Below are positions 8,380-26,290 of a stretch of DNA of 50,992 nt, piece by piece. This stretch comes from Haloarcula vallismortis ATCC 29715 (lineage in GTDB: Archaea; Halobacteriota; Halobacteria; Halobacteriales; Haloarculaceae), in NCBI RefSeq assembly GCF_000337775.1, contig NZ_AOLQ01000027.1, positions 1 to 50,992 on the forward strand, given 5' to 3'. Under the pieces are notes generated by a model, which was not told the origin of the DNA, did no database searches, and saw only the letters and a list, made by a program, of their open reading frames with translations. Within the stretch, counting starts at the first letter, position 1, and each line of letters starts with the position of its first letter. A program made the translations under genes and the position numbers.

Positions 8380-10953
8380 ATGGAGCCTACCGATAGCCTG
8401 CCGACCCAGGCCGATACCGTTATCGTCGGTGCTGGAATCGTCGGCTGCAACATCGCTTACCAGCTGACAGAGCTCGGCCGCGAGGACGTAGTCGTAGTTG
8501 ACCAGGGGCCGATGCCGACTACGGGGGGATCGTCGACGCACGCCCCCGGTATCATGTTTCAGACCGCGGAACCGAAGGTCCTCAGCCAGTTTGCGGACTA
8601 CAGCCGCCGCCTGTACTCGGACCTCGAAGGGGCTGACGGGCATCAGGCGTACAACGAAACCGGCGGCATCGAAGTCGCGCGCAGCGAGGAGCGCATGGAC
8701 TTCCTCCAGCGCCGCGTCGAGTACGCCAAGGCATGGGGCATCGAGGACCCGCAGCTGCTTTCCCCTGAGGAGGTCACCGAGCATCTCCCGCTTGTCGACG
8801 CCGACCAGATCAAGGGCGGCTACTACTCCCCGACAGACGGGCAAGTTTCGGGCGTGGTCGCCTGCGACGCGCTGGCCCGAGAAGCGATGGACCGAGGCGC
8901 GAAGTTCGTTCCGCACACGCGCACCGAGGACGTGGAGACGGAGAACGGCTCGATAGAGGCCGTTGTCACGGAGAACGGCAGTATCGAGTGCAACGAGGTC
9001 GTCGTCGCGACGAACATCTGGGCCCGGCAGCTCGGCGAGAAACTCGACGTGCACCTCCCCGTGACGCCCGTCGAGCACCAGTACACGATGACTGAGTCGC
9101 TGGACGAGCTTGCCGACAGCGCGGTCGACATCACCGACCACCCACTGTTCGAAAACTACGAGAACGTCTCCGGAGAGAAAGCGAAACGTCTCCTCGTCGG
9201 CCCGGACCGGCCGATTCTGCGTGACCAGGACAACGCGATGTACTACCGGAACCACGGGGACTCCTACGGCATCGGCTCGTACAACCACGAGCCAATCGTG
9301 CCGGACCCACAGGAACTCGGCGGCAACGACCCCGACGGCGAGCAAGGGTCTGTCCACGAGTTCACCGACTACCACATGGACAACGCGACCCACCCGGACC
9401 GGCCGGACAAAGCTCCCCGTCAGGCCAGCAACGAACTGTTGCCCGCGACAGCCGACAAGGAGCTCGAACACAAGTACAACGGGATGTTTGCGGAGTCGCC
9501 CAACGGTCTGCCTGTGATGGGTCCCGTCCAGGAGTACGACGGCCTCTGGACGGCGGCGGCCATCTGGGTCACCCATGCCGGCGGGGCCGGCAAAGCGCTC
9601 GCCGAGTGGATGGAACACGGCGTCCCGCGACTGCCGTCCGGTCCGATTGACCTCGCGCACTGCGACGTGAACCGCTTCGACGACCACGAGGGGAGTTGGG
9701 ACTTCGCCCGAGACATCGGCGGCGAGGAGTACCGCATCGTCTACAACATCATGCACCCCAAGTGGGTCTGGACCGACAAACAGCGAGACATCCGTCGGAC
9801 TCCGATGTACCACACCCACAAGAAGTACGACGCCGAACTGTGGGCAGAGGCGGGCTGGGAGGAACCGCACTGGTTCGACTCCAACGCCGACCTGCTGGCG
9901 GAGTACGGGGACCAGATTCCTGACCGCGAGGGCTGGGAGGCGAAGTACTGGTCGCCCATCGAGGGCGCTGAAGCACTGAACGTCCGCAACAACGTCGGGC
10001 TCCACGACATGACATCCTTCAACAAGATGGAGGTCATCGGGAGCGACGCCGGCGAGTTCGTCCAGTACCTCTGTACGAACGACATGGACATCGACGTGGG
10101 CGAGGTGAAGTACACGCTGATGTGCAACGAAGGCGGCGGCGTGCGAGCGGACATCACGGTCACGCGAACCGACGAGGACCGCTACCTCCTGCTGACCACT
10201 GGCCGTGAGGTCGGGAACAATCACGTCGCGTGGGTGCGCGAGCAGTCCCCCGAGGATGTGGTCGTCAATGACGTGACCTCCAGCCTGGCGGCGATGGTCT
10301 GTACCGGTCCGAACGCCCGAAAGGTCCTCTCGAAGGTCACCGACGTTGACCTCTCTGACGACGCCTTCCCCTTCTTCACGAGCCAGCAGTTCTTCGTGAA
10401 GAACATCCCTGTCACCGCGCTCCGGGTCTCCTATGCGGGCGAACTCGGCTGGGAGTTCTACACGCCCTCTGAGTACGGCGAACGCCTCTGGGAGCACATC
10501 ATGGAGACCGGCGAGGAATACGGTATCCGGCCCTATGGCAACGGCGCACTGAATTCGCTGCGCATCGAGAAGGGGTTCCGCCTCTGGGGGAAGGACCTCC
10601 ACACGGAGCACAACCCCTACGAGGCCGGCCTGGGCTGGGCGGTCGACCTCGAAACCGACTTCATCGGCAAGGAGGCGGTCGCGGCGGCCGCCGACGGCGA
10701 CAACATCGACCACAAGGTCGCGTGCCTGACGCTGGACGACGAGGATGCTGTCGTGCTTGACAACAAGCCTGTTCTCGACGGCGACGAGACCATCGGCTAT
10801 CTCCACAGCGCCGAGTACGGCTACACCGAGGGCGCGTGCGTCGCCTACACGTACCTGCCGCCCGAGTACGCCGAACCCGGCACCAGTGTCGAAATCCTCT
10901 ACGAGGGCGAGCGGTACGACGCGACCGTCCGCGAGGAACCGCTGGTTTCCTGA
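8380..10953 (+). CDS. FAD-dependent dimethylglycine/sarcosine oxidase or dehydrogenase, GcvT fusion (copy 1)
   Basis: An 857-residue fusion. Residues about 10-390 are the D-amino-acid-oxidase-type flavoprotein domain: G-A-G-I-V-G at 17-22, an Asp ending the second strand at 41, and G-S-S-T-H-A-P-G with H54, where dimethylglycine dehydrogenases attach FAD covalently. About 390-445 is the FAO_M linker, about 455-735 the GcvT folate domain, and the rest the GcvT C-terminal barrel. Such enzymes oxidise an N-methyl group and pass the carbon to THF as 5,10-methylene-THF within the same polypeptide. Dimethylglycine or sarcosine is the likely substrate; which one cannot be decided. A close paralog lies at 12922, with the Rieske oxygenase between them. 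Confidence 0.88.
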   Translation: MEPTDSLPTQADTVIVGAGIVGCNIAYQLTELGREDVVVVDQGPMPTTGGSSTHAPGIMFQTAEPKVLSQFADYSRRLYSDLEGADGHQAYNETGGIEVARSEERMDFLQRRVEYAKAWGIEDPQLLSPEEVTEHLPLVDADQIKGGYYSPTDGQVSGVVACDALAREAMDRGAKFVPHTRTEDVETENGSIEAVVTENGSIECNEVVVATNIWARQLGEKLDVHLPVTPVEHQYTMTESLDELADSAVDITDHPLFENYENVSGEKAKRLLVGPDRPILRDQDNAMYYRNHGDSYGIGSYNHEPIVPDPQELGGNDPDGEQGSVHEFTDYHMDNATHPDRPDKAPRQASNELLPATADKELEHKYNGMFAESPNGLPVMGPVQEYDGLWTAAAIWVTHAGGAGKALAEWMEHGVPRLPSGPIDLAHCDVNRFDDHEGSWDFARDIGGEEYRIVYNIMHPKWVWTDKQRDIRRTPMYHTHKKYDAELWAEAGWEEPHWFDSNADLLAEYGDQIPDREGWEAKYWSPIEGAEALNVRNNVGLHDMTSFNKMEVIGSDAGEFVQYLCTNDMDIDVGEVKYTLMCNEGGGVRADITVTRTDEDRYLLLTTGREVGNNHVAWVREQSPEDVVVNDVTSSLAAMVCTGPNARKVLSKVTDVDLSDDAFPFFTSQQFFVKNIPVTALRVSYAGELGWEFYTPSEYGERLWEHIMETGEEYGIRPYGNGALNSLRIEKGFRLWGKDLHTEHNPYEAGLGWAVDLETDFIGKEAVAAAADGDNIDHKVACLTLDDEDAVVLDNKPVLDGDETIGYLHSAEYGYTEGACVAYTYLPPEYAEPGTSVEILYEGERYDATVREEPLVS

Positions 10954-11050
10954 GTCCGCACACCGGGCTCCAGACCTCTTAGCTGGACTTTGTGCAGACT
11001 CGGTGGAAACGGCGTGTCGGGCCCGGTATCGGAATCCAGTCCTCCCAGGC

Positions 11051-11060
11051 CTGTTTAAAC
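11051..11060 (+). promoter_or_regulatory. TATA-like box upstream of the Rieske oxygenase
   Basis: The TTTAAA core lies about 56-61 bases before the ATG at 11116 and only about 15-20 bases before the in-frame GTG near 11074, too close for that GTG to be transcribed. It therefore favours 11116 as start, with a leader of roughly 30 bases. Confidence 0.4.
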
Positions 11061-11115
11061 GGGTGTACTATCCGTGGCCAATGGTGATGTGGAACACGGG
11101 TGCAAAAACAGACGT

Positions 11116-12255
11116 ATGACGAGGTGGAACCCGTCTAATGACGATGTCGAAGCAGTTAGTCCTGATATAACCGACGAAACGAACGCACTTCCGGCTAAAT
11201 ACTTTACAGACCCGAATGTCCACGGGCTGGAAAAGGAGAAGATATTCGGTCGATACTGGGTGTACGCCGGACACGCGAACGCGATTACCGAGCCTGGTGC
11301 GTATTTCACCCGGACCATCGGAGACAGGCAAGTCATCATCGTTCGTGACCACGACGACGAGGTCCGGGCGTTCTTCAACGTCTGTGCCCACCGCGGCTCG
11401 AAAATGGTCGAGGATACGCCCATGACCGACCCCGGAAACATGGGGCGAATCCGTTGTCCGTACCATATGTGGTCTTATGACCTCGACGGCGACCTCGAGA
11501 GCACGCCACAGAGCTTCGAAGAAGCGGGGCTCAATCCGGACCTGAGCGACGACGACGTCTGTGGCATGAACGCCAGCGAGAACAGCCTCAGCGAAGTCGA
11601 AACTGACCGAATCGGTCCGTTCGTCTTCCTCAACTTCGCCGACGATCCGACACCACTGGCCGAGCAGGCGGGGACGCTGAAATCGGAACTGGAGGCCATG
11701 CCGCTGGGCGAGTACGAACACGCCACGCGGTACGTCTCCGAGGTCGACTGTAACTGGAAGACGTTCGCCGGCAATTACTCCGAGTGTGACCACTGCCACG
11801 CGAACCATCAGGACTGGATAACTGACATCGAGCTCACGGAATCGGAGCTTGAGGTCAACGACTACCACTGGATTCTACATTACACCCACGACGAAGACGT
11901 CGACGACGAGATGCGGATTCACGACGAACACGAGGCCAAGTTCTACTACTTCTGGCCGAACTTCACCGTCAATATGTACGGAACTGCGGACGGATACGGC
12001 ACGTACATCATCGACCCGATCGACGAGGGTCGGTTCCAGCTCATCGCCGACTACTACTTCAGCGACGAGGCGATGACCGACGCCGAACGGGAGTTCGTCC
12101 AGACGAGCCGACAGCTTCAGGAGGAGGACTTCGAGCTCGTCGAGCGGCAGTACGAAGGGCTCAAGTCAGGCGCGCTCGCGCAGGCACAACTGGGTCCGAA
12201 CGAACACACGGTCCACCGACTGCATCGGCTCGCACAGGAAGCCTACGAGGCCTGA
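11116..12255 (+). CDS. Rieske non-heme iron oxygenase, glycine betaine/choline monooxygenase type
   Basis: A 379-residue alpha subunit. The Rieske [2Fe-2S] ligands are C90-A-H92 and C114-P-Y-H117. The mononuclear iron site is in N-W-K-T-F-A-G-N-Y-S-E-C-D-H-C-H (residues 213-228), with His226, His228 or His231 as the candidate His ligands. This N-W-K-x-F-x-x-N-Y-x-E-C-x-H-C pattern is typical of GbcA, choline monooxygenase and carnitine oxygenase. GbcA hydroxylates an N-methyl of glycine betaine, giving dimethylglycine and formaldehyde, and the flanking dimethylglycine-type oxidases fit that product. No ferredoxin reductase gene is nearby. A small gene starts 4 bases after the stop, so the two are probably co-transcribed. 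Choline or carnitine remain alternatives. Confidence 0.82.
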   Translation: MTRWNPSNDDVEAVSPDITDETNALPAKYFTDPNVHGLEKEKIFGRYWVYAGHANAITEPGAYFTRTIGDRQVIIVRDHDDEVRAFFNVCAHRGSKMVEDTPMTDPGNMGRIRCPYHMWSYDLDGDLESTPQSFEEAGLNPDLSDDDVCGMNASENSLSEVETDRIGPFVFLNFADDPTPLAEQAGTLKSELEAMPLGEYEHATRYVSEVDCNWKTFAGNYSECDHCHANHQDWITDIELTESELEVNDYHWILHYTHDEDVDDEMRIHDEHEAKFYYFWPNFTVNMYGTADGYGTYIIDPIDEGRFQLIADYYFSDEAMTDAEREFVQTSRQLQEEDFELVERQYEGLKSGALAQAQLGPNEHTVHRLHRLAQEAYEA

Positions 12256-12259
12256 ACTG

Positions 12260-12628
12260 ATGACACAGGGAAGCCAACAGGACGCGCCGTTCGTCGCTCA
12301 ATGCGCCGCGACTGGTGCCACAGTAACGACCTCGACGGCCAACGAGGTCGTTGCCTTCTACCGCCGCCGGCAGCGACTCCTGGACACAGATATCGAGTGG
12401 GTCTCCGCGGAGCACCGTGCCGTCTCACAGGCCCCCGAATCAGACGACGTCGCATATGTCCTCCGAGAGCTAGACGACGACTTCGAGCGGGGCGTCCCAC
12501 TGGGCATCCTCGCTGCCGCGATGAGCAAACAGGGACGGACAGTCGGAGACACGTTAGCAGACGTGTACGACTTGCGTATGGCCGGGTCGCTCTGGGAGCC
12601 CCGGTCCGACTACCTCCGCCCGGTTTGA
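12260..12628 (+). CDS. Small protein co-transcribed with the Rieske oxygenase, unknown function
   Basis: 122 residues beginning 4 bases after the oxygenase stop. The N-terminus has two Cys/Thr-rich strands, followed by a helical middle (E-V-V-A-F-Y-R-R-R-Q-R-L-L). The C-terminal third (about 78-122) resembles a winged-helix end: G-I-L-A-A-A-M-S-K-Q-G, then a helix with V-G-D-T-L-A-D-V-Y-D-L-R-M-A-G-S-L-W-E-P and a short basic tail. There is no iron-sulfur or flavin motif, so it is not the missing reductase. It could be a regulator or an accessory factor of the oxygenase. I do not recognise a named family. Confidence 0.6.
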   Translation: MTQGSQQDAPFVAQCAATGATVTTSTANEVVAFYRRRQRLLDTDIEWVSAEHRAVSQAPESDDVAYVLRELDDDFERGVPLGILAAAMSKQGRTVGDTLADVYDLRMAGSLWEPRSDYLRPV

Positions 12629-12650
12629 CGAACCGGTTCAGCCACGTTTT
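12620..12650 (+). terminator. Possible terminator after the Rieske operon
   Basis: CCGGTT and AACCGG form a 6-bp inverted repeat around a 5-base loop at the stop codon, followed about ten bases later by four T residues. This is weak, but it is positioned at the operon end. Confidence 0.3.
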
Positions 12651-12921
12651 CTCCCCAGAGCGGCTGTGTTAATACTGCTGTCAATCGATGAACCCTCACA
12701 AGCGACTCTCTAGCGACCTTTTCAGCCAGGGGGAGACCAGATATTGTCAGCCACGCAGTATGCTGAGGTTCGATGCGACTCGCGCTCGTAGCGGTCGGCC
12801 ATACATCACAGATATGCCCCGAGTGGTAGATAGACGGCCTGATAATCCGAAATACGCTGAGCCGCGACTGTCGCCACCGGTGTATTTAACATCGTGACAG
12901 AAACAGTCCCAAACGAAATAC

Positions 12922-15474
12922 ATGAGCACAGAGACTCCCCCGTCTCGGGCGGATACAGTTGTTATCGGTGCCGGGGCCGTCGGATGTAGCGTCGCGTATC
13001 ACCTGACTGAACTCGGCGCGGAAGATGTCGCGGTCATCGATCAGGGGCCGCTGCCCGTCACTGGCGGGTCGTCAGTCCACGCCCCCGGTATAATGTTCCA
13101 AACGTCGCCGTCGAAGATCCAGACGAAGACAGCCTACTACACCAGTCGGCTCCTTTCTGATGCCGGTGTCTACGATGAGGTCGGTGGCATTGAGGTGGCC
13201 CGGAGCGAGGACCGAATGGACTTCCTGCGTCGCCGAACGGAATGGGCGACTTCCTATGGCCTGCCCGAGCCGCAACTGCTCTCGCCCGAGGAGGTCACCG
13301 AGCACCTCCCGATGGTCGACGAAGACGAGATTCTGGGTGGCTACTACTCGCCGACCGACGGGCGCGTCGACGGCATCGGCGCACTGCAGTGGTACATGGA
13401 ACACTCCTCGGCGTCGTTCTACGGGAACACGGAGGTCACGGATCTGGATGTCGAGGGCGGCGAAATCAACGCTGTCGAGACCGACCAGGGCCGCATCGAC
13501 TGTGAACGGGCGGTTATTGCGACGAACAACTGGGGCTATCAGACCGGCCAACTGGCCGGGCTTGACTTGCCGATTGCCCCGGTCGAGCACCAGTACGTCG
13601 TCACGGAGCCGATGGACGAACTTGCTGACGCCGAGACATCGGTGGGCGACAACACAACCGGACTGGAGGTCCCGGGCGACCGCTCTATCGCGGAGTACAT
13701 GAGCGAAGGGCCACATCAGCCTGTCGGCCGCGATCAGGACCACTCGCTGTACTTCCGGACTCATGGCGACGCGCTTGGTATGGGGTCGTACAACCACGAG
13801 ACACTCTCGGTTGACCCCGAGGCGATGGGGAAGAACTCGGAGGAGCATCAGGCCTCCGTCCGTGGGTTCACAAAGGAGCACTGGGAGACGCCGACCCACC
13901 GCGGGCGGGACAAGTCCGCGAAGCAGGCCTTCGACGAACTCCTGCCGGCGACACAGGACGTGGAGTACGAAGCCACCGAGAACGGCATCTTCGTCTTTAC
14001 GCCCGACGGGATGCCGGCAGTCGGCGAGACGGCGCAGGTCGACGGCCTCTGGACGGGGCTGGCCATCTGGTGGACCCACTCCGGGGGCTACGGCCGTATT
14101 CTCGCGGAATGGATGGAAAACGGCACGCCACGGCTGCCGTCTGGACCGGTCGATACCGGCGGCATCCACGTCCGGCGGTTCGAACCCCACGCCGGCGAGA
14201 AGGACTACTTCGTGGACCGCGGAGCCAAGCGATACGAGCAGGTGTACAGCATCGTCGAGCCGCGGTGGCAGCCCGACGACCACAGGGGGCTCAGAACCAG
14301 TCCGTTCTACCACCAACAGAAAGAACTCGGCGCGGAGTTCTACCAGAGCGGCGGCTGGGAGACGCCACAGTGGTACGAGTCCAACGCCGACCTCGTCGAG
14401 AAATACGAGGACCGGATTCCCGACCAGGATGGCTGGCAGGGCATCAACCGTTCGAAAATCGAGGCCGCCGAACACCTCCACACTCGCGACAAGGTGTCGA
14501 TGTTCGACATGACGACGTTCAGCTCTATCATGGTCGAAGGCGAGGGCAGTCAGGCGTTCCTCCAGCGGGTCTGTAGCAACGACATGGACCTCGAAACCGG
14601 TCAGGTCCGCTACTCGCTGCTGTTGAACGAGGGCGGCGGCATTCTTGCTGATATCACCGTCGTCAAACTCGACGACGAGGAGTTCATGGTGACGACCGGC
14701 GGCGGTAACTCCCCCGGTATCCACGGCGGCCACCTAACAGACGAGGCTCCCGCGACGGTGTCGGTCCACGTCGAGGAAGGGGCGAAATCGACAATCGGTC
14801 TCTGGGGACCGAACGCGCGGCTGCTCCTCCAGCGGTGTACCGACGCCGACGTGACCAACGACGGCTTCCCGTACTTCCGGGCCAAGCAGATGTACGTCGG
14901 TGACGTACCGGTCATCGCGTTGCGTGTCTCGTACGTCGGTGAACTCGGGTGGGAGCTATGGGCCCCGACGGAGTACGGCCAACGGCTCTGGGAGACGCTG
15001 CAAGAGGCTGGCGAGGACCTCGGCGTCCGACCGATGGGCGGCGGCGCGCTCAGCTCCATGCGGTTAGAGAAAGGCTACCGCCTCTGGGGGACGGACATCG
15101 ACACGGACTCGAACCCCTTCGAGGCCGGCTTACCCTTCGCTGTCGACATGGACACCGAGTTCATCGGCAAGGACGCGCTAGAGGCTGCGCGCGAGGAGGG
15201 CATCGACAGCAAAATCACGCCGCTCACCCTCGATGACTCGACGGATATCATGCTGAGCGGCCGACCTGTGCTGAAAGACGGCGAGGCGATCGGCTACGTC
15301 CAGGCCGGCAACTACGGCTACAGTATCGACAAGTCGATCGCGTACACGTACGTGCCGACCGAATACGCCGAAGCCGGAACATCGGTTCAGATACAGTGCG
15401 AAGGCGAGACATACGACGCGACGGTGCGTGACGAGCCGCTGTTCGATCCGGCCCGGGAGCGAATCACGAAATGA
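12922..15474 (+). CDS. FAD-dependent dimethylglycine/sarcosine oxidase or dehydrogenase, GcvT fusion (copy 2)
   Basis: An 850-residue paralog of the gene at 8380 with the same architecture: FAD fold with G-A-G-A-V-G at 16-21, G-S-S-V-H-A-P-G with H53 as likely covalent flavin site, FAO_M linker, GcvT folate domain and C-terminal barrel. The two share long identical blocks (for example around E-V-A-R-S-E-D/E-R-M-D-F-L and L-L-S-P-E-E-V-T-E-H-L-P) but differ in the flavin-domain loops and the linker, as expected if one handles dimethylglycine and the other sarcosine. A TATA-like TATTTAAC about 30-38 bases upstream gives it its own promoter. The serine/threonine dehydratase follows 56 bases after its stop, probably in the same unit. 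Confidence 0.88.
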   Translation: MSTETPPSRADTVVIGAGAVGCSVAYHLTELGAEDVAVIDQGPLPVTGGSSVHAPGIMFQTSPSKIQTKTAYYTSRLLSDAGVYDEVGGIEVARSEDRMDFLRRRTEWATSYGLPEPQLLSPEEVTEHLPMVDEDEILGGYYSPTDGRVDGIGALQWYMEHSSASFYGNTEVTDLDVEGGEINAVETDQGRIDCERAVIATNNWGYQTGQLAGLDLPIAPVEHQYVVTEPMDELADAETSVGDNTTGLEVPGDRSIAEYMSEGPHQPVGRDQDHSLYFRTHGDALGMGSYNHETLSVDPEAMGKNSEEHQASVRGFTKEHWETPTHRGRDKSAKQAFDELLPATQDVEYEATENGIFVFTPDGMPAVGETAQVDGLWTGLAIWWTHSGGYGRILAEWMENGTPRLPSGPVDTGGIHVRRFEPHAGEKDYFVDRGAKRYEQVYSIVEPRWQPDDHRGLRTSPFYHQQKELGAEFYQSGGWETPQWYESNADLVEKYEDRIPDQDGWQGINRSKIEAAEHLHTRDKVSMFDMTTFSSIMVEGEGSQAFLQRVCSNDMDLETGQVRYSLLLNEGGGILADITVVKLDDEEFMVTTGGGNSPGIHGGHLTDEAPATVSVHVEEGAKSTIGLWGPNARLLLQRCTDADVTNDGFPYFRAKQMYVGDVPVIALRVSYVGELGWELWAPTEYGQRLWETLQEAGEDLGVRPMGGGALSSMRLEKGYRLWGTDIDTDSNPFEAGLPFAVDMDTEFIGKDALEAAREEGIDSKITPLTLDDSTDIMLSGRPVLKDGEAIGYVQAGNYGYSIDKSIAYTYVPTEYAEAGTSVQIQCEGETYDATVRDEPLFDPARERITK

Positions 15475-15530: not shown

Positions 15531-16793
15531 ATGACACAAACAGAATCGGACGCCCTGCCCGTCACATACGCGGACATCGAACGTGCCCGCGAACGACTGG
15601 ACGACGACACAGTCGTCAAGAAGACGCCGGTCGAGCGGAGTACGTCGCTCGGTGAGTTCGTCGACGCTGAGGTACACCTGAAGATGGAACACCTCCAGTG
15701 GACAGGGTCGTTCAAGACCAGAGGCGCGTACAACAAAATCTCGCAGGATGTCGCCGACGGCGTGGAGTCGTTCGTCGCCGCCAGCGCCGGGAACCACGCA
15801 CAGGGTGTCGCCCTCGCCGCGACAAAATGCGGTGCGGAGGCGACGATCTTCATGCCAGAGAACGCACCACAGGCCAAAGTCGACGCCACTAGAGCCTACG
15901 GCGGGAGCGTCGAACTGGTCGGTAACGACTTTCAGGAGACGATGTCTCACGCCAAGGCCGTCGTTGAGGAGACCGATGCGGAGTTCGTTCACGCCTACGA
16001 CGATCTGGACATCATCGCCGGACAGGGGACGCTCGGAACGGAGATGTACCACGACTGCCCGGACGTCGACACGGTCATCGTTCCCATCGGCGGCGGCGGA
16101 CTTATCAGCGGTGTCTCGACCGCGATTAAACACCTCTCACCCGAGACGCGTGTCGTCGGCGTTCAGGCGACCGGTGCCGAGACTGTCCACGAGAGCCTCG
16201 ACAAAGGGATTCCGGTGGTGCTTGACGAGGTCGACACCATCGCTGACGGTATCGCCACCGGCGGCATCTCCGAGACGACCCTCGGCATCATCGAGGCGAA
16301 CGTGGACGAGGTCGTGACGGTTTCGGACACCGATATCGCACAGGCGATTCTCTTGCTGATGGAACGGGCCAAACAGGTCGTTGAAGGTGCCGGGGCCGCC
16401 TCCGTGGCTGCCGTGCTGAGTGACGACCTCGACGTCTCGGGTGAAACTGTGATGCCACTGCTCTGTGGCGGGAACCTCGATATGACACAAATGCGTGAGG
16501 TTCTCATCCACGCACTCACAGAGCGTCAACAGCTCCTGCAGCTCCGGGTGCGCATCAACGATCAACCGGGTGTGATGGAGGAAATATCCGGCGTCATCGC
16601 CAGACAGGGGGCAAATATACACGACGTCCGGCACGAACGGTCCGTCGAGAATCTCGAGATTGGGGAAGCATACCTCGTGTTCAACGTCGAGACAAGCGGT
16701 GCCGAGCACGCACAGACCATCATCACAGCGATTCGTGACGCGGGCTATCCTGTCGACAACGTCGCACGCGAGGCACAAAACGGCGCACTGTGA
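15531..16793 (+). CDS. PLP-dependent threonine/serine ammonia-lyase with ACT domain
   Basis: 420 residues. Fold-type II PLP enzyme: S-F-K-T-R-G-A with Schiff-base K62, A-S-A-G-N-H-A-Q-G near 84 (substrate carboxylate loop), and G-G-G-G-L near 188 holding the PLP phosphate. Residues about 335-415 form an ACT regulatory domain. It removes ammonia from threonine or serine, giving 2-oxobutyrate or pyruvate. The length and ACT domain are those of catabolic-type enzymes rather than the longer biosynthetic IlvA with a double ACT. Its place right after the second methylglycine oxidase suggests serine as the physiological substrate: glycine plus methylene-THF makes serine, which this enzyme turns into pyruvate. 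That step is inference. Confidence 0.85.
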   Translation: MTQTESDALPVTYADIERARERLDDDTVVKKTPVERSTSLGEFVDAEVHLKMEHLQWTGSFKTRGAYNKISQDVADGVESFVAASAGNHAQGVALAATKCGAEATIFMPENAPQAKVDATRAYGGSVELVGNDFQETMSHAKAVVEETDAEFVHAYDDLDIIAGQGTLGTEMYHDCPDVDTVIVPIGGGGLISGVSTAIKHLSPETRVVGVQATGAETVHESLDKGIPVVLDEVDTIADGIATGGISETTLGIIEANVDEVVTVSDTDIAQAILLLMERAKQVVEGAGAASVAAVLSDDLDVSGETVMPLLCGGNLDMTQMREVLIHALTERQQLLQLRVRINDQPGVMEEISGVIARQGANIHDVRHERSVENLEIGEAYLVFNVETSGAEHAQTIITAIRDAGYPVDNVAREAQNGAL

Positions 16794-16883: not shown

Positions 16884-17327
16884 ATGTACGACCACATACT
16901 CGTCCCGTACGACGGCAGCGACGAGGCCAGAAAAGGGGCAGAACACGGCATCGAACTCGCTGCTGCGCTCGGCGCGACGGTGCATGCATTGTACGTAATC
17001 GACCTCCCGGGGACGCCACGTGCGCTCGCGCTCAGGGATGACGAGGAGGAGATGCGAGAGGAGTATCGGGACTACGGCGAGGAGGTGCTGGCGAATCTCG
17101 GGACTGTCGCCGAAGAACACGGCGTCGACTACGAGATGCATTTCAAGACCGGTGCGCCCAGCGAAGAAATAGTCGAATTCGCCGAAGACGAAGGCATGGA
17201 CGCAATCGTTCTGGGCTCAGCGTTCCGTGGGAAACTCGGGAACCTTCTCGGCGGGACGACGGACAAGGTGGTCAGAACGTCGAGTGTGCCAGTTATCAGC
17301 CAGCGGATGAGCGTCAACGATATTTAA
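16884..17327 (+). CDS. Universal stress protein, UspA family
   Basis: 147 residues with the standard single UspA fold: opening M-Y-D-H-I-L-V-P-Y-D-G-S-D-E-A, a V-H-A-L-Y-V-I-D second strand, a central helical insert rich in Glu, and the ATP-binding G-S-x-F-R-G-K-L-G-N-L-L-G-G-T-T-D-K-V-V-R-T-S motif near the C-terminus. The G-x2-G-x9-G-S/T pattern indicates the nucleotide-binding subclass. The precise role is unknown. It follows the dehydratase by 90 bases, and its last bases overlap the end of a convergent small gene. Confidence 0.88.
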   Translation: MYDHILVPYDGSDEARKGAEHGIELAAALGATVHALYVIDLPGTPRALALRDDEEEMREEYRDYGEEVLANLGTVAEEHGVDYEMHFKTGAPSEEIVEFAEDEGMDAIVLGSAFRGKLGNLLGGTTDKVVRTSSVPVISQRMSVNDI

Positions 17328-17905: not shown

Positions 17906-19666
17906 ATGGCAGACAGTGACGACGCAACCGGCGAGATGTCGGACGGACTTCAGGTAGAGCTGTTCCATCCGGAGTCCGACCGCGAGCCCGGTGATACGAA
18001 CATTCAGGCAGCCGGATTCGACGTCCATCCGGTGGTATTCCCGGTAGCACTGGCGATAATTGCGCTGTTCATCGCAGTGACCATACTGCTTGGTGACACA
18101 GCAGCCTCCGCGTACACGTGGCTGTTCAACACCATTGGGGACACATTCGGCTGGTTCTACCTGCTGGCAGTAAACGTGTTCATCATCACATTGCTGTACT
18201 TCGCGTTCAGCAAGTACGGCAATATCAAGATCGGCGGCGTCAAGGCCGAAAAGGAGTTCAGCGACTTTTCCTGGATGGCAATGCTGTTCAGCGCCGGCAT
18301 GGGTATCGGACTCATGTTCTTCAGCGTCTCGGAGCCGCTGTACTACTTCCAGAACCCCCCGAGCTTCTTCGGGGCTGAAGCTGGAACCGGTGCAGCAGCG
18401 TCCGCCGCGATGGCACAGACGTTCTTCCACTGGGGCTTTCACCCGTGGGCGGTGTATGGCCTCGTTGGACTCGGCCTCGCGTTCTTCTCGTTCAACCGCG
18501 GGCTCCCGCTCACCTTCCGGTCGATCTTCTGGCCCCTACTGGGGGATCGGATTTACGGCTGGCCGGGCCACATCATCGACCTTGTGACGGTGTTCGCGAC
18601 GCTGTTCGGGCTGTCCACCTCGCTGGGACTCGGTGTCGCACAGGTCAACACCGGCCTGTCCTACGTCGGCGGCGACATGCTCGGTGCGGTGAGTATCCCG
18701 ACGGGGACCTGGCCGCAAGTCGCACTTATCGCCGGCATCACGCTCATCGCAACCCTCTCGGTCGCAGCGGGACTCGACGGCGGTGTCAAGCGCCTGAGCA
18801 CGCTCAACCTCTACCTGATGTTCACACTGCTCGGGTTCCTCGTGGTTGTTGGCCCGACGGTGTACCTCTTTGGCACCTGGGTAGAGGGACTCGGTGCGTA
18901 CTTCGGCAACATCCTCGCGCTCGGGTTCTTCACCGGGACACTCAACGAAGCAGCGAACGGGACCCCTACCGCCTGGACAGTGTTCTACTGGGGCTGGTGG
19001 ATCGCGTGGTCGCCGTTCGTCGGGATGTTCATCGCCCGAATTTCGAAGGGCCGGTCCGTCCGGGAGTTCGTCCTGGGCGTCCTGTTCCTCCCATCGATGT
19101 TCTCGACACTCTGGCTGTCAGTGTTCGGCGGGAGCGCGATGTTCAACTCCCTGGCGGGCAACGGGCAGGCGCTCGCAACGTACAACGAGGTCGGCCAGAC
19201 CGTCGCGATGTTCGCCCTGCTGGAGCAGTTCCCGCTTGGCGTGGTGAGCGGTCTCCTCGCGACGCTGCTGGTCATCACGTTCTTCGTCACGTCGTCAGAC
19301 TCCGGCTCGCTGGTCATCGACCACCTGACTTCGGGCGGGAAACACGACGTGCCGCGAACGCAGCGGATCTTCTGGGCGCTCACCGAAGGGCTCGTCGCCT
19401 CGATCCTGCTCATCGGTGGCGGCCTGACGGCGCTCCAGACGGCCGCAATCACGACAGGGCTCCCGTTCGCACTCATCCTGTGCCTGATGTGTTATACGGT
19501 GTATCTGGGACTCGACAACGAGTACCAGATACTGGAGTCCGAAGAGTTCGCAGAAACCATCCAAGACCTCTCCGAACGGGAGGACATGGATATCGTGACC
19601 GCCGGCGACGAGATGGTAACGGACATCTCCGAACGGGGTGACGACGCTCCGACTGGTACCGACTGA
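17906..19666 (+). CDS. BCCT-family betaine/carnitine/choline transporter
   Basis: A 586-residue membrane protein with about 12 hydrophobic segments. It contains the family's long conserved block in the eighth segment region, W-W-I-A-W-S-P-F-V-G-M-F-I-A-R-I-S-K-G-R-S-V, and an earlier G-M-G-I-G-L-M-F-F-S-V-S-E-P segment, the glycine-rich unwound helix that forms the substrate site in BetP. N- and C-termini are acidic and cytoplasmic. BCCT carriers import quaternary ammonium compounds with Na+ or H+. Beside a Rieske betaine-type oxygenase and methylglycine oxidases, the cargo is most likely glycine betaine for catabolism as well as osmoprotection. The cargo is inference from family and context. 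Confidence 0.92.
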   Translation: MADSDDATGEMSDGLQVELFHPESDREPGDTNIQAAGFDVHPVVFPVALAIIALFIAVTILLGDTAASAYTWLFNTIGDTFGWFYLLAVNVFIITLLYFAFSKYGNIKIGGVKAEKEFSDFSWMAMLFSAGMGIGLMFFSVSEPLYYFQNPPSFFGAEAGTGAAASAAMAQTFFHWGFHPWAVYGLVGLGLAFFSFNRGLPLTFRSIFWPLLGDRIYGWPGHIIDLVTVFATLFGLSTSLGLGVAQVNTGLSYVGGDMLGAVSIPTGTWPQVALIAGITLIATLSVAAGLDGGVKRLSTLNLYLMFTLLGFLVVVGPTVYLFGTWVEGLGAYFGNILALGFFTGTLNEAANGTPTAWTVFYWGWWIAWSPFVGMFIARISKGRSVREFVLGVLFLPSMFSTLWLSVFGGSAMFNSLAGNGQALATYNEVGQTVAMFALLEQFPLGVVSGLLATLLVITFFVTSSDSGSLVIDHLTSGGKHDVPRTQRIFWALTEGLVASILLIGGGLTALQTAAITTGLPFALILCLMCYTVYLGLDNEYQILESEEFAETIQDLSEREDMDIVTAGDEMVTDISERGDDAPTGTD

Positions 19667-19676
19667 AGCGTTCTCG

Positions 19677-20353: not shown

Positions 20354-20416
20354 ACCGTCGGTCGCCGTGAAAACCTATCGACCGTCTGGGACCGGGCCAC
20401 CGTCGGCGCTGCCCGG

Positions 20417-20425: not shown

Positions 20426-20450
20426 CCGTCAGCGTACGTATCATACTACA

Positions 20451-20882: not shown

Positions 20883-20891
20883 CCGTCCTCC

Positions 20892-21125
20892 TCAGTAGTA
20901 CTTCCAGTCATCCTCGCGGCTTCCCTGGACGACTCCGTCCTCGTTCTCGCTGTCCATCTCTTCTCTCTCGTCGGGCCAGCGGACACCCTCGCCGACGACG
21001 CTCTTGTACGCGAAGGCACCCAGACCGACGAGTATCAGCAGGAGAACGACGGTTCCGGCGACTGCCGCCAGCTGCCCAACGGATTCGAGGAGACCCGAAC
21101 CGAGCTGAATCGGAAATTGCATCAT
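20892..21125 (-). CDS. Small single-pass membrane protein
   Basis: 77 residues from the first of two adjacent ATG codons at 21125. A single hydrophobic helix spans about residues 17-42 (Val, Leu, Ala, Gly rich), followed by a strongly acidic cytoplasmic-like tail ending in W-K-Y-Y. It lies convergent with the zinc-ribbon gene, with about 10 bases between their ends, and just downstream of the folate fusion gene in the same direction. Function unknown. Confidence 0.55.
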   Translation of the reverse strand: MMQFPIQLGSGLLESVGQLAAVAGTVVLLLILVGLGAFAYKSVVGEGVRWPDEREEMDSENEDGVVQGSREDDWKYY

Positions 21126-21150
21126 ACACACACTACGGGCTGGACAGGTA

Positions 21151-23550
21151 TCACTGTTGTCGAAGCCGAGACGCCCGCCCTGCCGTCGCTGATACCGTTT
21201 TGAGGACGGCGTTGTTCTCAGAGACGTCGTGGACCCTGACGGCGTCGGCCCCGCGCTCAGCGGCCAGTGCTGTTGTTGCCAGAGTTGGCGGCAGCCTGTC
21301 TGCTCCTGCGTCGCTCACGTCCGCGAACATCGACTTCCGGGAGTGGCCGACCAGCACCGGACAGCCGAGGGAGTGGAATTCGTGAAGACGGTCGACGAGT
21401 TCGAACGACTCGGCGGCGTTTTTCCCGAACCCACAGCCGGGGTCGACGATAACCTGCTCGCGGTCGATGCCGGCCTGCTCGGCGAGCAGTAGCTGTTCCG
21501 TGAGATCCCGTAGCACGTCATCGACGACATCATCGTAGGTCACAGTTCGACCCGGGTCCACTGGCGCGGACAGACTATGCATCAGGATAATGGATGCGTC
21601 GTGGTCGGCAACCACGAACCGCATCTCGGGGTCCGACAGTCCCGACACGTCGTTGACGATGTCGGCACCGGCCGCAAGCGCCGCGTCAGCGACGGCAGCT
21701 TTTCTGGTATCGACGGAGACAGTTGCATCGAGCGATGACACGGCCTCGATAACGGGCACGACGCGGTCAATTTCTGTTTCGACGGTCACCGGGTCTGCGC
21801 CGGGACGCGTGCTTTCGCCGCCGATATCAACGATATCCGCCCCGGATTCGATCATCTGTTCTGCACGGTCGATAGCAAGGTCGCGGCGGTTGTACTCGCC
21901 ACCGTCATAGAAACTATCCGGCGTGACGTTGAGAATTCCCATCACGGCCGCGGCTTCAGTGTCGAACGGCGGGGGGAACGACCTGTCTGCCAGTGCGCCT
22001 TCGAGCTGTGTGGCGAGCTGACCGAGCCCCAGTCCCGCCGAGGCCAGTCGGTCACTGAGCTGTCGGAACTGTCGCGGCGTCCCCGAAAGGTACACCTCGA
22101 CGAGTTTCTCCGGCATCCCGACAGCCGAACAAGTGCAGGTGCCGTCGCAGTCCTCGAACGCCTGCCTGACGGCGTCGGCCTGATCGCGCCGCAACGTGAC
22201 TGAAAGTACGCGCTGGCGGATTGCTGGCTCGTTGCTGGGTCCAGCACCGCCTGTCGAAGGCACCTGCCGGAGGCTGTCCTCGGGAACGACGAGCCGGCTC
22301 CAGCGGTCCCGTGCCTCGGCAACTGCATAGAGTGAGCCGGCCACGAGGACGAAGTCGTCCGCGCCGGCCGTGGCTATCGCTCGTTCGGTGGCTTCTGGAA
22401 CGGATTCGACCTGCTGTACCCGGGCCGCCTGCCCCTCAAACGCGGCAGCGAGCGAGTCGGTGCTCGCGGCTCGGTCGACTTCTGGTCGCGCGGTAAAGGC
22501 CGTCTCGACGGCTGGGAGCGACGCGATCATTCGTTCGTACTCCTTGTCGTTCATCGCGGCGAAGACCACATGGAGGTCATCGTACTCGTATCGCTCGACG
22601 AGTGTAGTCAGTGTCTCCATCGCACCGGGGTTGTGGGAGCCATCGAGGACTACCATCGGGTCGGTCGACCGGATTTCGAACCGGCCCGGAAGCGTCGCGG
22701 CCCGCAGCCCCTCGGATACGGTTTCTGTGTCCACATCAATGAGTTGTCGAGCCAGCGTTGCGGCAACGCCGGCGTTCTCTGCCTGATGCTGTCCGAGTAG
22801 CTTGAGGTTCGATTCGAGGGCCCAGTCCGGCCCAGTGAGTGAGATGCGGTTCTCGACAGCCGAGCGCATGCCGTTCTCGACGGCTGTGACATCTGCCCCG
22901 TCGTCGCCGACGGTGATGGTATCGGTACTCTCCTGAACCGCATCGAGAGCAGCGCCGGTCGTTCCCGTCACGAGCGGGGCGTCTCGTGGCGCGACCTGTG
23001 CTTTATCGCGGGCAATCTCCTCGACCGTGTCGCCCAGCAGGTCAGTGTGTTCTAAACTGATGCTGGTGACGGCGCTTGCGACGGGATCGACTGCGCTCGT
23101 GGCGTCGTACCGGCCACCGATACCGACTTCCAGCACCGCAACGTCGACACCCTCAACATCGAAGTGATAGAGCGCTAGTGCAGTGAGAACCTCGAAATGT
23201 GTCGGCTTGTCGTCTTCGGCAGCCAGTTGGTCGATACAGGGCTTGATCTGCTCGACGAATCCTGTCACCCGTTCTTTCGGGACCCGGCCGCCGTTGACTG
23301 TGATCTGCTCCCGGAAACCGTTCAGTCCTGGCGATGTGAACAGGCCGACATCTAGCCCGGCGGCCCTGAGTACGCTCTCTGTCATCCGGGCGGTACTTCC
23401 CTTTCCGTTTGACCCGGCAATCTGCACGCTGTCGAAACTGTCGTGCGGGTCACCGAGATGTGAGAGCATCCGCGCCGTCGTATCGGTTCCCAACTTGGGC
23501 CGACGACGCTGTAGCGACTGCAGGTAGTCCGCCGACTCGTGGTACTCCAT
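21151..23550 (-). CDS. folCP: Folylpolyglutamate synthase - dihydropteroate synthase fusion (FolC-FolP)
   Basis: A 799-residue two-enzyme fusion, with start at 23550 because a TATA-like ATTAAT sits 26-31 bases upstream. Residues 1 to about 415 are a Mur-ligase-type FolC: P-loop A-G-S-N-G-K-G-S-T near 45-53, and a V-x-L-D-G-S-H-N-P-G-A motif near 290, adding glutamates to folate with ATP. About 425-530 is a linker with a C-D-G-T-C-T-C cysteine cluster. From about residue 537 begins FolP: G-I-L-N-V-T-P-D-S-F and D-I-G-G-E-S-T-R-P-G-A, condensing pterin with p-aminobenzoate. Fused FolCP is known from Haloferax and related halophiles. It supplies polyglutamated folate for the C1 enzymes around it. 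Confidence 0.92.
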   Translation of the reverse strand: MEYHESADYLQSLQRRRPKLGTDTTARMLSHLGDPHDSFDSVQIAGSNGKGSTARMTESVLRAAGLDVGLFTSPGLNGFREQITVNGGRVPKERVTGFVEQIKPCIDQLAAEDDKPTHFEVLTALALYHFDVEGVDVAVLEVGIGGRYDATSAVDPVASAVTSISLEHTDLLGDTVEEIARDKAQVAPRDAPLVTGTTGAALDAVQESTDTITVGDDGADVTAVENGMRSAVENRISLTGPDWALESNLKLLGQHQAENAGVAATLARQLIDVDTETVSEGLRAATLPGRFEIRSTDPMVVLDGSHNPGAMETLTTLVERYEYDDLHVVFAAMNDKEYERMIASLPAVETAFTARPEVDRAASTDSLAAAFEGQAARVQQVESVPEATERAIATAGADDFVLVAGSLYAVAEARDRWSRLVVPEDSLRQVPSTGGAGPSNEPAIRQRVLSVTLRRDQADAVRQAFEDCDGTCTCSAVGMPEKLVEVYLSGTPRQFRQLSDRLASAGLGLGQLATQLEGALADRSFPPPFDTEAAAVMGILNVTPDSFYDGGEYNRRDLAIDRAEQMIESGADIVDIGGESTRPGADPVTVETEIDRVVPVIEAVSSLDATVSVDTRKAAVADAALAAGADIVNDVSGLSDPEMRFVVADHDASIILMHSLSAPVDPGRTVTYDDVVDDVLRDLTEQLLLAEQAGIDREQVIVDPGCGFGKNAAESFELVDRLHEFHSLGCPVLVGHSRKSMFADVSDAGADRLPPTLATTALAAERGADAVRVHDVSENNAVLKTVSATAGRASRLRQQ

Positions 23551-23575
23551 ACCATAATTGGTCGCCGGCGGCCTG

Positions 23576-23581
23576 ATTAAT
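23576..23581 (-). promoter_or_regulatory. TATA-like box of folCP
   Basis: ATTAAT on the reverse strand, 26-31 bases ahead of the ATG at 23550. It excludes the longer upstream start at 23664. Confidence 0.45.
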
Positions 23582-23866
23582 GTATCGCCAGCGCGAATCT
23601 GTCGTGCTAGCGCGTATGTCGGTGGTGTAGCCGATTTAGGCCCGAGCCGGTCCATATCCCGCAACGGTGGGCCGAAAGCGGTGATCGAGGTATCTCGTAC
23701 ATCCTGACTTCGGGGCCGCTGCCGGTCGGCCTATTGTTAGGTCTGGGAGCCAATCTCGTAATCCGTGCTACATGATGTGTCTTCTGTGGCGTCTCGAACA
23801 CATCCTATCCCAGTAGTGTCAGGTACGCTAACATTATTACGACGGTGCAGGGAAGGGCTAGTCGAG

Positions 23867-25612
23867 ATGTCTTCACAGGATGAGCAATCCGCGATCGAAG
23901 AGACACAGGAGCCGATTCCTACGGACTACGACATCGCTCAGTCGACCGACATGGAGCCGATCTGGGAACTGGTCGAGCCGTGGGGTCTCGGCCTTGACGA
24001 CCTCCAGTACTTCGGCGAATACACCGCGAAAGTCAAACAACACGCCATCGAACGCCTCCGCGAACAGGCCCAGAACAAGGAACAGAACCTCGTTCTGGTA
24101 ACCGGAATGACGCCGACGCCGAAAGGCGAAGGCAAGACAGTAACGACCGTCGGCCTCGGACAGACGCTAAACCACGTCGGCGAGGAGGCGATGATCGCCA
24201 TCCGGGAGCCGTCGCTTGGTCCCGTATTCGGTGTCAAAGGCGGCGCAGCAGGTGGCGGCCGGTCGCAGGTCCTTCCGATGGAGGACATCAACCTTCATTT
24301 CACCGGCGACCTGCACGCACTCACCTCCGCGCACAATCTCATCTCCGCGATGCTCGACGCGAAAATCTCGCAGGGCGACGAGCTGGACATCGACATCAAT
24401 AATGTCGCGTGGCCGCGGGCCATCGACATGAACGACCGCGCGCTTCGGGAGACAGTCGTCGGCCTCGGCGGCAAGACCGGTGGAACGCCGCGAGAGGACA
24501 GTTTCATCCTGACGGCCGCTTCGGAGCTGATGGCAGTCCTCTGTCTGGCACAGGACATCGGAGATCTGAAAGAGCGCGTCAGTCGCATCATCGTCGCATA
24601 CGACGAGGACGGTGACCCGGTCACGGTCGACGATATCGAGGCGACCGGCCCAGCAACCATGCTGCTCCGGGACGCGATCAAGCCGAACGTCGTCCAGACC
24701 ATCGAAGGGACGCCAGCGCTGGTCCATGGCGGCCCGTTCGCGAACATTGCCCACGGGACAAACTCGCTGGTCGCCGACAAAACCGCGTTCGGCATGGGTG
24801 ACTACCTCGTTACCGAGGCCGGCTTCGGCTCTGACCTCGGCGCTGAGAAGTTCATGGACGTGGTCTGTCGCAAAGGCGATATGACGCCGAACGCCGTCGT
24901 GCTCGTGGCGTCGGTCCGGGCGCTCAAATACCACGGGCTCGATCAGTGGCCGGTCGACTACGACGAGATCGACGAGGCCGGCGTCGAAGCCGTCGAAGCC
25001 GGCTTCTCGAATCTCGACAAACACGCGACGAACCTCCAGAAGTTCGGCGTCCCGGTCGTCGTCTCCGTCAACCGCTTCCCGGACGACACCGACGAAGAAA
25101 TTCAGGCCGTGTTGGACCACTGCCGCGGCGATCTCGGCGTCCGTGCCGCGGAGTCGAACGTGTTCTCCGACGGCAGCGAGGGCGGTGTCGACCTCGCGGA
25201 GAATGTCATCGAGGCGACCGAGGAGAGCGACGAGGAGGACTTCCGGATGCTGTACGACGACGAGGACAGCATCAAAGAGAAGATTCACACCGTCGCGACC
25301 GAGATTTACGGCGCTGACGACGTGAAATACACCGGCGGCGCGCTCGATGACATCGAGCACATGAACGACCTCGACTTCGACGACTATCCGGTCGTCATGT
25401 CCAAGACGTTCCACTCACTGAGCGACGACGCCAGTCGAAAGGGTGCGCCGGAGGGCTGGGAACTCGAAATCAGTGAGGTGTACCCGTCAGCTGGCGCGGG
25501 CTTCCTCGTTGCGCTCACGGCCGATGCGCTCACGATGCCGGGCCTGCCGGCCCGTCCGGCCGCGGCCGATATGGACATCGACGAGGACGGTAACATCTCG
25601 GGACTGTTCTGA
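23867..25612 (+). CDS. fhs: Formate--tetrahydrofolate ligase
   Basis: A 581-residue enzyme joining formate, ATP and THF to give 10-formyl-THF; it can run in reverse, yielding ATP and formate. Seen: the P-loop T-P-K-G-E-G-K-T near residues 84-91, G-P-V-F-G-x-K-G-G-A-A-G-G-G near 123, a N-L-H-F-T-G-D family block near 145, and the C-terminal G-F-L-V-A-L-T near 545. The length is slightly over the usual 555, with an acidic N-terminal extension of 25 residues. The ATG at 23867 has an AT-rich ACATTATTAC box about 30 bases upstream. It follows folCP divergently and is convergent with a cyclohydrolase gene; the three form a folate segment. In a betaine-degrading cell it could recover ATP from formyl carbon. 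Confidence 0.95.
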   Translation: MSSQDEQSAIEETQEPIPTDYDIAQSTDMEPIWELVEPWGLGLDDLQYFGEYTAKVKQHAIERLREQAQNKEQNLVLVTGMTPTPKGEGKTVTTVGLGQTLNHVGEEAMIAIREPSLGPVFGVKGGAAGGGRSQVLPMEDINLHFTGDLHALTSAHNLISAMLDAKISQGDELDIDINNVAWPRAIDMNDRALRETVVGLGGKTGGTPREDSFILTAASELMAVLCLAQDIGDLKERVSRIIVAYDEDGDPVTVDDIEATGPATMLLRDAIKPNVVQTIEGTPALVHGGPFANIAHGTNSLVADKTAFGMGDYLVTEAGFGSDLGAEKFMDVVCRKGDMTPNAVVLVASVRALKYHGLDQWPVDYDEIDEAGVEAVEAGFSNLDKHATNLQKFGVPVVVSVNRFPDDTDEEIQAVLDHCRGDLGVRAAESNVFSDGSEGGVDLAENVIEATEESDEEDFRMLYDDEDSIKEKIHTVATEIYGADDVKYTGGALDDIEHMNDLDFDDYPVVMSKTFHSLSDDASRKGAPEGWELEISEVYPSAGAGFLVALTADALTMPGLPARPAAADMDIDEDGNISGLF

Positions 25613-25655
25613 CGAATCGGCCTCGCGTCCCAGCTCCTGCGGTTCGTCCGCTCGA

Positions 25656-25660
25656 TTTTT
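25656..25660 (+). terminator. T-tract terminator after fhs
   Basis: Five T residues about 44 bases downstream of the fhs stop, before the convergent cyclohydrolase end. Confidence 0.35.
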
Positions 25661-25696
25661 CTGAACGGCGCTCGGCGTTCGACGAGCCGACGACGC

Positions 25697-26290
25697 TCAG
25701 TTCTCCGCGTTTGCGACCGCTTCTTCGAGCGCCGCCTCGCCGGCCGCTTCTGCTTCGTCTGCCCGCTGTTCCATCTTCGCCACGAACGATTCGTCGTCTA
25801 TCATACCGAGATTGGCCCGAGCAGTCGAGACCGACGCCTGTAGCGCCGCCGCCGCGAGCAGCGCTCCGACAGCCGCGTCCGGGACGGCGACCGGCGTACT
25901 CTTCGCAGTCACCGTGCCGGCGTGCTCAACGACGTCGAGACAGACCTCGGCCGTCTCCAGTGGTACCTCGGTCGAGCGTTTCGAGGCCGCTTGAATCCTG
26001 GCGTCGTCTCCGGACTCGAACGCGGCCCCGACCGCGTCGACCGCTGCCGCGTCCTCATCGGCGAGGGCGAGCAGCCGCTCACGGTGGTCGGCCAGAGCCT
26101 CACCGACCTCGCTTAGCTCACTAGGCGCCGTCTGGGTCCCGTCTGTGCCGACAGTGTGAATACAGACCATCTCACAGAGCGCCGCACCCATCGCGCCGCC
26201 GACGGCCGCGACTGCACCGCCGCTCGGAGTCACCTGGCCCGACGCGACATCGTCGAGGAACTCGCCGATAGGCTGGTCCGCGAACGTCAT
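25697..26290 (-). CDS. Cyclodeaminase/cyclohydrolase family protein (FchA-like methenyl-THF cyclohydrolase)
   Basis: 197 residues from the ATG at 26290. It shows the all-helical FTCD-C fold: an opening helix F-L-D-D-V-A-S-G-Q-V-T-P-S-G-G-A-V-A-A-V-G-G-A-M-G, where P-x-x-G-G-G/A-S/A-V-A-A-x-x-G-A is the family signature; a middle helix with D-E-D-A-A-A-V-D-A; and a later helix with V-P-D-A-A-V-G-A-L-L-A-A. Members convert methenyl-THF to formyl-THF or deaminate formimino-THF. With fhs convergent beside it, the cyclohydrolase role links methenyl-THF to formyl-THF. An upstream in-frame start at 26341 would add an unlikely Cys/Asn-rich stretch. Confidence 0.82.
   Translation of the reverse strand: MTFADQPIGEFLDDVASGQVTPSGGAVAAVGGAMGAALCEMVCIHTVGTDGTQTAPSELSEVGEALADHRERLLALADEDAAAVDAVGAAFESGDDARIQAASKRSTEVPLETAEVCLDVVEHAGTVTAKSTPVAVPDAAVGALLAAAALQASVSTARANLGMIDDESFVAKMEQRADEAEAAGEAALEEAVANAEN

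Follow-up and report, generated by a model that had tools for sequence, protein, structure and literature searches.

We analyzed a contig of Haloarcula vallismortis ATCC 29715 (NZ_AOLQ01000027.1, 50,992 nucleotides; hereafter, the window), which contains a cluster of genes putatively involved in the uptake and demethylation of glycine betaine (GB) and in folate-bound one-carbon (C1) metabolism. All genes named in a preliminary description of this DNA, made from the sequence alone, were confirmed at the stated positions as uninterrupted open reading frames. Four genes were missing from its list: those of a 122-aa protein, UspA, a putative helix-turn-helix (HTH) regulator, and an AspA/AstE-type protein. 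Five genes from the first dimethylglycine oxidase (DMGO1) to the BCCT carrier (DMGO1, Rieske, DMGO2, ammonia-lyase, and BCCT) have the same direction. The features of the region are as follows:

2300–2872 (+): dihydrofolate reductase (DHFR; PF00186, E 7e-48), which stays beside the cluster in Rieske-free Haloarcula
3110–4486 (+): DmdA-like GCV_T protein, candidate tetrahydrofolate (THF)-dependent demethylase, alternative first step (DmdA model, 248.8 bits)
4780–5640 (−): small protein similar to methylenetetrahydrofolate reductase (MTHFR), candidate 5-CH3-THF-oxidising partner of the DmdA-like enzyme (PF02219)
5719–6921 (−): putative HTH regulator, without Pfam/NCBIfam match, its HTH-like stretch judged by eye only
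7060–8016 (−): AspA/AstE-type deacylase (PF24827, E 1.6e-27), present in 11/71 Rieske loci
8380–10953 (+): DMGO1, dimethylglycine/sarcosine oxidase of the FAD-GcvT type (DAO, FAO_M, GCV_T, GCV_T_C)
10947–12870 (no strand): insert of the Rieske and small genes, approximate extent relative to the empty site (blastn against locus L160)
11074–12255 (+), likely start 11116: Rieske oxygenase alpha subunit, candidate GB N-demethylase (PF00355 and PF00848)
12260–12628 (+): small HVO_B0008-domain protein of 122 aa, 4 bp after the Rieske stop (PF25214/PF25215)
12922–15474 (+): DMGO2, second dimethylglycine/sarcosine oxidase of the FAD-GcvT type (DAO, FAO_M, GCV_T, GCV_T_C)
15531–16793 (+): threonine/serine ammonia-lyase with an ACT domain (TIGR01127, 435 bits, above the cut-off of 378.75)
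16884–17327 (+): universal stress protein (UspA) adjoining the BCCT gene (the H. marismortui homologue is annotated as universal stress protein)
17906–19666 (+): BCCT carrier (PF02028, E 1.2e-178)
21151–23664 (−): FolC-FolP fusion, folate synthesis (TIGR01499 and TIGR01496, both above cut-off)
23765–25612 (+): formate-THF ligase (PRK13505, 798.6 bits, above the cut-off of 652)
25697–26341 (−): FTCD_C/FchA-like methenyl-THF cyclohydrolase (PF04961, E 6.4e-42; FchA model, 113 bits, below the cut-off of 275)

From these genes, their key residues, linkage, and co-occurrence, we infer the substrates, directions, and fluxes of a route on which the region is probably a catabolic cluster for GB and its demethylation products. 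The BCCT carrier would import GB. The first methyl group would be removed, giving dimethylglycine (DMG), either by the Rieske oxygenase, with O2 and electrons and with release of formaldehyde, or by the DmdA-like protein, which would pass the methyl to THF for the MTHFR-like protein to oxidise 5-CH3-THF to CH2-THF. Two DMGO-type enzymes would then convert DMG to sarcosine and sarcosine to glycine, loading C1 onto THF; serine hydroxymethyltransferase (SHMT), encoded elsewhere in the genome, would form serine from glycine and CH2-THF, and the ammonia-lyase would yield pyruvate and ammonia. Of three C1 units per betaine, one would go to serine; FolD or the cyclohydrolase, followed by formate-THF ligase, would turn the rest into formate with a gain of ATP. 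Folate would come from DHFR and FolC-FolP. A betaine-to-pyruvate pathway had been proposed in the preliminary description. The gene context supports its transport, demethylation to glycine, folate C1, serine, and pyruvate parts, whereas the type assigned to the Rieske enzyme, the binding of all recovered C1 to folate, and the view of the DmdA-like and MetF-like genes as bystanders were not supported as stated there. Rieske N-demethylation frees formaldehyde; therefore, carbon derived from the Rieske step would not be folate-bound, and C1 would reach folate solely in the DMGO reactions and by way of the DmdA-like protein.

Both DMGO proteins aligned over their whole length with Arthrobacter globiformis DMGO (1pj5), with E values of 5.9e-176 for DMGO1 and 7.5e-181 for DMGO2. 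They share with it the full-length domain order DAO-FAO_M-GCV_T-GCV_T_C and the equivalents of active-site residues H225, Y259, and D552 (the last is the residue changed to Ala in the 3gsi chain), which assigns both to the DMGO family; we take these residues to be catalytic in DMGO. In contrast to Arthrobacter, the window contains two DMGO paralogues, which share about 50% identity. By homology, DMGO1 and DMGO2 would act on DMG and/or sarcosine and transfer C1 to THF. Creatininase-family genes were found within two DMGO clusters of other genomes (L149, 9970–10707; L201, 22766–23503), which suggests that sarcosine might also be derived from creatinine or creatine.

The comparative set comprised 391 haloarchaeal genomes, and neighbourhoods were tallied within a radius of 10 kb over 71 Rieske loci, labelled L with a number as are the other loci; the presence of BCCT, DMGO, and other genes at the Rieske loci was cross-checked by Pfam/NCBIfam profiles. 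Close relatives of the Rieske protein were encoded in 67 genomes of 21 genera. DMGO was present in all 67 of them versus 58 of the 324 others (Fisher's test, 7e-41, relatedness uncorrected), and the five genomes whose Rieske relative is more distant (43–52% identity) had none. The neighbourhoods contained DMGO2-like genes at 55 loci, BCCT at 51, ammonia-lyase at 47, a monomeric sarcosine-oxidase-like gene at 39, and SHMT at 24; a homologue of the HTH regulator was found at 38 of the 71 in this tally and at 28 in another. The clustering is far above chance: the gene content and its order are found again in many genera of haloarchaea. Annotated examples come from Haladaptatus, Halarchaeum (with glyA in the cluster), and Haloterrigena turkmenica (with FolD and pabB). 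SHMT or FolD thus lies inside the cluster in relatives, and SHMT beside a serine-type ammonia-lyase at other loci is independent support for the glycine–serine–pyruvate exit. In the genome of H. vallismortis, SHMT was found in a single copy adjoining a FolD gene, and a second FolD was also present, so the glyA and folD looked for following the preliminary description are in place. Genes of GcvT, GcvH, and GcvP were located together on another contig.

The BCCT carrier scored 512.1 bits with the GB-specific model NF047988, below its curated cut-off of 650 bits; this was still the best specific model, and the general BCCT models were matched above their thresholds.

In nine Rieske-free Haloarcula genomes (L160–L168), gene content and order were unchanged between the HTH regulator and DHFR at one end and UspA and BCCT at the other, and about 220 bp separated DMGO1 from DMGO2; L169 and L170 were similar with small changes. 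Haloarcula hispanica, a genetically tractable species, likewise carries the cluster, on plasmid NC_015944, and lacks the Rieske gene there. In a blastn comparison of the empty site (L160) with the window, the flanks matched at 89.8% and 95.5%, the latter on the DMGO2 promoter side, and the Rieske and small genes (about 10947–12870) replaced about 170 bp. At L063 and L064 the pair lies elsewhere, and the DMGO cluster of these genomes is found without it at L171 and L172. To judge from these alignments, the Rieske and small genes behave as a two-gene cassette inserted into an older DMGO1-DMGO2 operon.

Rieske-free genomes with DMGO nearly always encoded the DmdA-like protein: it was found in 56 of these 58 genomes, in 24 of the 67 with the Rieske gene, and in 17 of the 266 without DMGO. 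Some of the DmdA-like matches, at 68–73%, are probably a second paralogue; when genomes with only such matches were removed by hand, the first two counts became about 55/58 and about 23/67. The Rieske or the DmdA-like gene was present in 123 of the 125 DMGO genomes, and only two lacked both; shuffling the Rieske labels within families gave a mean of 10.4 genomes lacking both and two or fewer in 0 of 20,000 rounds. One replaces the other within family f1 (genera g10 and g12), f4, and f9 of the set; thus, the exchange does not reflect one ancient split. The DmdA-like gene lay within 26 kb of DMGO in 45 of the 52 Rieske-free genomes with listed positions, and in Salinigranum, BCCT, ammonia-lyase, two DMGO, FolCP, formate-THF ligase, FolD, DmdA-like, and MTHFR genes form one stretch without a Rieske gene. 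The DmdA-like and MTHFR-like genes, previously regarded as merely nearby, are on these counts core members of the system and probably its alternative first step. We propose that the DmdA-like and Rieske enzymes are interchangeable first demethylases, one THF-dependent and the other O2-dependent; the two are unrelated, and their either/or pattern offers a sharp test.

The best PDB match of the DmdA-like protein was the DmdA-type structure 3tfh (E 1e-42). That of the MTHFR-like protein was 7xg9/7xlf (E 9.6e-36, residues 7–279, near full length), presumably the enzyme of Sphingobium SYK-6. We considered an ordinary methionine-pathway function for this protein and found it unlikely: it is the sole PF02219 match in the genome of H. 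vallismortis and the Haloferax volcanii control has none, so it is not the general methionine enzyme of the group. In strain SYK-6, LigM, a THF-dependent demethylase of the GcvT family, has as its partner an MTHFR catalysing the oxidation of 5-CH3-THF to CH2-THF (PMC12585457). Both systems would combine a THF-dependent demethylase of this family with a small MTHFR running in the oxidising direction; the transferase is, however, DmdA-like rather than LigM-like here, and the setting is methylated glycine and BCCT instead of lignin aromatics. By analogy, the MTHFR-like protein is a candidate for the oxidation of 5-CH3-THF to CH2-THF, and a LigM-like pairing would allow folate to capture the first methyl. 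We put forward only tentatively that the DmdA-like protein is a corrinoid-free GB:THF methyltransferase that works with an oxidising MTHFR independently of O2 and was repeatedly exchanged with a non-GbcA Rieske enzyme without a dedicated reductase. If so, a methyl group would pass directly from a quaternary ammonium to folate. We know of no case in which THF receives a methyl from such a compound without a corrinoid or zinc-thiol route, and the chemistry is the weak point of this proposal.

The DmdA-like protein might instead demethylate dimethylsulfoniopropionate (DMSP) and have no more in common with the betaine genes than the BCCT carrier and the recovery of C1 on folate, which is compatible with the role proposed for the Rieske enzyme. 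DmdA is its closest curated model, and its nearest bacterial relatives, in a plasmid collection, lie beside OsmC, enoyl-CoA hydratase, and acyl-CoA synthetase genes, resembling a DMSP demethylation operon. Its score, however, is below the curated DmdA cut-off of 410 bits; no acyl-CoA ligase, dehydrogenase, or hydratase of a DMSP branch was recurrent in 13 haloarchaeal DmdA-like loci, where MTHFR, FolD, ammonia-lyase, and BCCT genes are the neighbours; and DMSP demethylation leaves the presence of the gene in almost all Rieske-free DMGO genomes unexplained. We regard a DMSP demethylase as rather unlikely.

The Rieske protein contained the motifs CAHRG/CPYH, NYSECDHC..NH, and QEED. By these and the stretch NYSECDHCHANH, it has the features of group V oxygenases (a CxH/CxxH cluster, a 2-His-1-Asp iron site, a bridging Glu, and an aromatic residue at CntA position 203), and its closest PDB match was CntA (6y8j, E 1.8e-37). 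Quaternary-ammonium Rieske oxygenases are split by position 203, with Tyr/Phe in group Va and Asn in GbcA and Stc2 (group Vb); in CntA, the aromatic residue binds the ammonium group, and the substrates of group Va are carnitine, choline, and benzalkonium (PMC7948474). Full-length haloarchaeal members have Tyr at this position (NYSEC), and L139 and L141 have NNREC. The GbcA model NF058607 (curated cut-off 670 bits) gave 135.5 bits for the window protein, over residues 34–250 of the N-terminal half only, compared with 494.6 for the Stc2-like protein of Sinorhizobium and 528.5 for a GbcA-like protein of Paracoccus, both over the full length, and 156.7 for a CntA-like protein. In the tree, haloarchaeal Rieske proteins formed a separate clade (100/99) outside the Stc2/GbcA-like clade (100/99), the deeper branching order not being settled. 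Model score, Tyr residue, and tree rule out the label of GbcA homologue and set the enzyme apart from the GbcA/Stc2 type. It also differs from CntA: the carnitine contacts Asn270 and Tyr295 are not kept (alignment judged by eye), there is no CntB-type reductase, and the haloarchaeal clade is separate. GB is nevertheless its likeliest substrate because the Rieske gene was never found without DMGO. An AlphaFold2 model of the protein (12 sequences) had a mean pLDDT of 46 and was not used.

The proposed route has in common with the bacterial GB pathway (GbcAB, DMG oxidase/dehydrogenase, sarcosine oxidase, GlyA, and serine deaminase) the order of steps, the logic of Rieske and FAD-GcvT enzymes, BCCT uptake, and the serine/pyruvate exit. 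It differs in the non-GbcA type of the Rieske enzyme, the lack of a GbcB reductase in the genome, two fused DMGO instead of heterotetrameric SoxBDAG, built-in folate genes, the archaeal host, and the presence of another candidate for the first step.

Several observations weigh against GB catabolism as outlined here. The residue type of the Rieske enzyme groups it with oxygenases of carnitine, choline, or benzalkonium rather than with GbcA. The FNR-type reductase domain PF00175, looked for as the Rieske reductase, had no match in the genome of H. vallismortis or in the Haloferax volcanii control, absences in the former resting on searches with single families. No formaldehyde- or formate-oxidising gene was recurrent in the cluster across the Rieske loci. 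The co-occurrence tests are corrected for phylogeny only in part. Thirteen DmdA-like loci without DMGO nearby (L177–L187, L190, and L194) keep MTHFR and BCCT, mostly ammonia-lyase, and often FolD. The DmdA-like module thus serves some function independent of DMGO, and these loci are not explained by a DMGO-requiring pathway unless DMG is excreted or handled elsewhere. Finally, betaine gave no response in Hqr. walsbyi, which has DMGO and BCCT, or in H. utahensis, as cited by Anderson et al. 2011 (PMC3102087).

The same authors found DMGO near BCCT in four haloarchaeal genomes and proposed the use of betaine, DMG, and/or sarcosine, without being able to separate GB from the other two (PMC3102087). 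In contrast to the present analysis, Rieske, DmdA-like, MTHFR, SHMT, and folate genes were not considered there, and co-occurrence was not tested. The cluster could accordingly serve DMG, sarcosine, or creatine-derived substrates, with GB serving solely as an osmolyte and other compounds as the substrates of the Rieske and DmdA-like enzymes; the occurrence of an intact DMGO1-DMGO2 operon without the Rieske gene and of the creatininase-family genes in two related clusters fits such a function. We consider it unlikely, since BCCT is linked throughout and the either/or pattern of Rieske and DmdA-like genes is best explained by a common role upstream of DMGO. That the Rieske enzyme oxidises choline or another quaternary ammonium to GB, which only the DmdA-like enzyme would demethylate, agrees with its Tyr residue, its place in the tree, and the 24 Rieske genomes that also encode the DmdA-like protein, but is improbable because DMGO would be left without any first demethylase in the other 43 of the 67, no betaine-aldehyde dehydrogenase recurs beside the Rieske gene, and that gene never occurs without DMGO.

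In the usual view, haloarchaea follow a salt-in strategy and betaine serves them as an osmolyte, if at all; betaine is abundant in brines. It is treated as an osmolyte in papers on Halomicroarcula as well. If GB catabolism by the proposed route works, haloarchaea would consume GB for carbon, nitrogen, and energy and compete for it with methylotrophic methanogens. We found no report of Rieske, DmdA-like, or MTHFR genes in such a role, most subscription journals not being covered. Among the genomes with a Rieske gene are strains with "GB" in their names (A-GB1, A-GB7, A-GB9, A-GB9-2, and H-GB1-1), which might point to enrichment on betaine; no paper on them was found, and the names were not used.

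Regarding electron supply to the Rieske enzyme, seven plant-type ferredoxin (Fer2) matches were found in the genome of H. vallismortis, and a directly reduced ferredoxin may be the donor. The small HVO_B0008-domain gene was present at 66 of the 71 Rieske loci. The AlphaFold2 model of its product was confident (pLDDT 90); a fold search with it returned nothing at E ≤ 0.001 apart from weaker hits of winged-helix-like type above that threshold, and no paper on the HVO_B0008 region was found. A C..C..H..H motif is present in most relatives of this protein and lost in Haloarcula, and its C-terminal part appears winged-helix-like in the model.

At Natrialbaceae-type loci the Rieske family is split: type B lacks the Rieske cluster ligands and keeps the iron site, and type C is the reverse. 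Tandem B and C genes with these complementary losses were found at L118 (7979–9046 and 9715–11046) and at L119–L122, and they are the only close Rieske members of these five genomes; a split pair of this kind is present in Natronococcus. Electrons cross between subunits in Rieske trimers (PMC7948474), and, judging from the retained ligands, B and C could form a working mixed-subunit enzyme. It is equally possible that type C is decaying, as all five genomes also contain the DmdA-like gene. Loci L094, L104, L105, L110, L112, and L115 carry, after a full Rieske gene, a truncated copy that has lost the ligands of the Rieske cluster and kept its iron site intact. At L150 (10007–11104, Haladaptatus sp. 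YSMS36), the neighbours of a distant Rieske relative (46%) include BCCT, acyl-CoA, and hydratase genes but not DMGO; this is probably another quaternary ammonium pathway.

Some gene starts in the window are probably over-extended: the Rieske protein of H. marismortui begins at Met15 of the window frame (11116), and this species also has a shorter formate-THF ligase and a shorter FolCP. Further downstream, positions 35988–45886 encode sugar-nucleotide and glycosyltransferase proteins (UDP-GlcNAc 2-epimerase, UDP-sugar dehydrogenase, and epimerase), with a short Hepar_II_III_C frame at 35988–36536; this is apparently an unrelated surface-glycan region.

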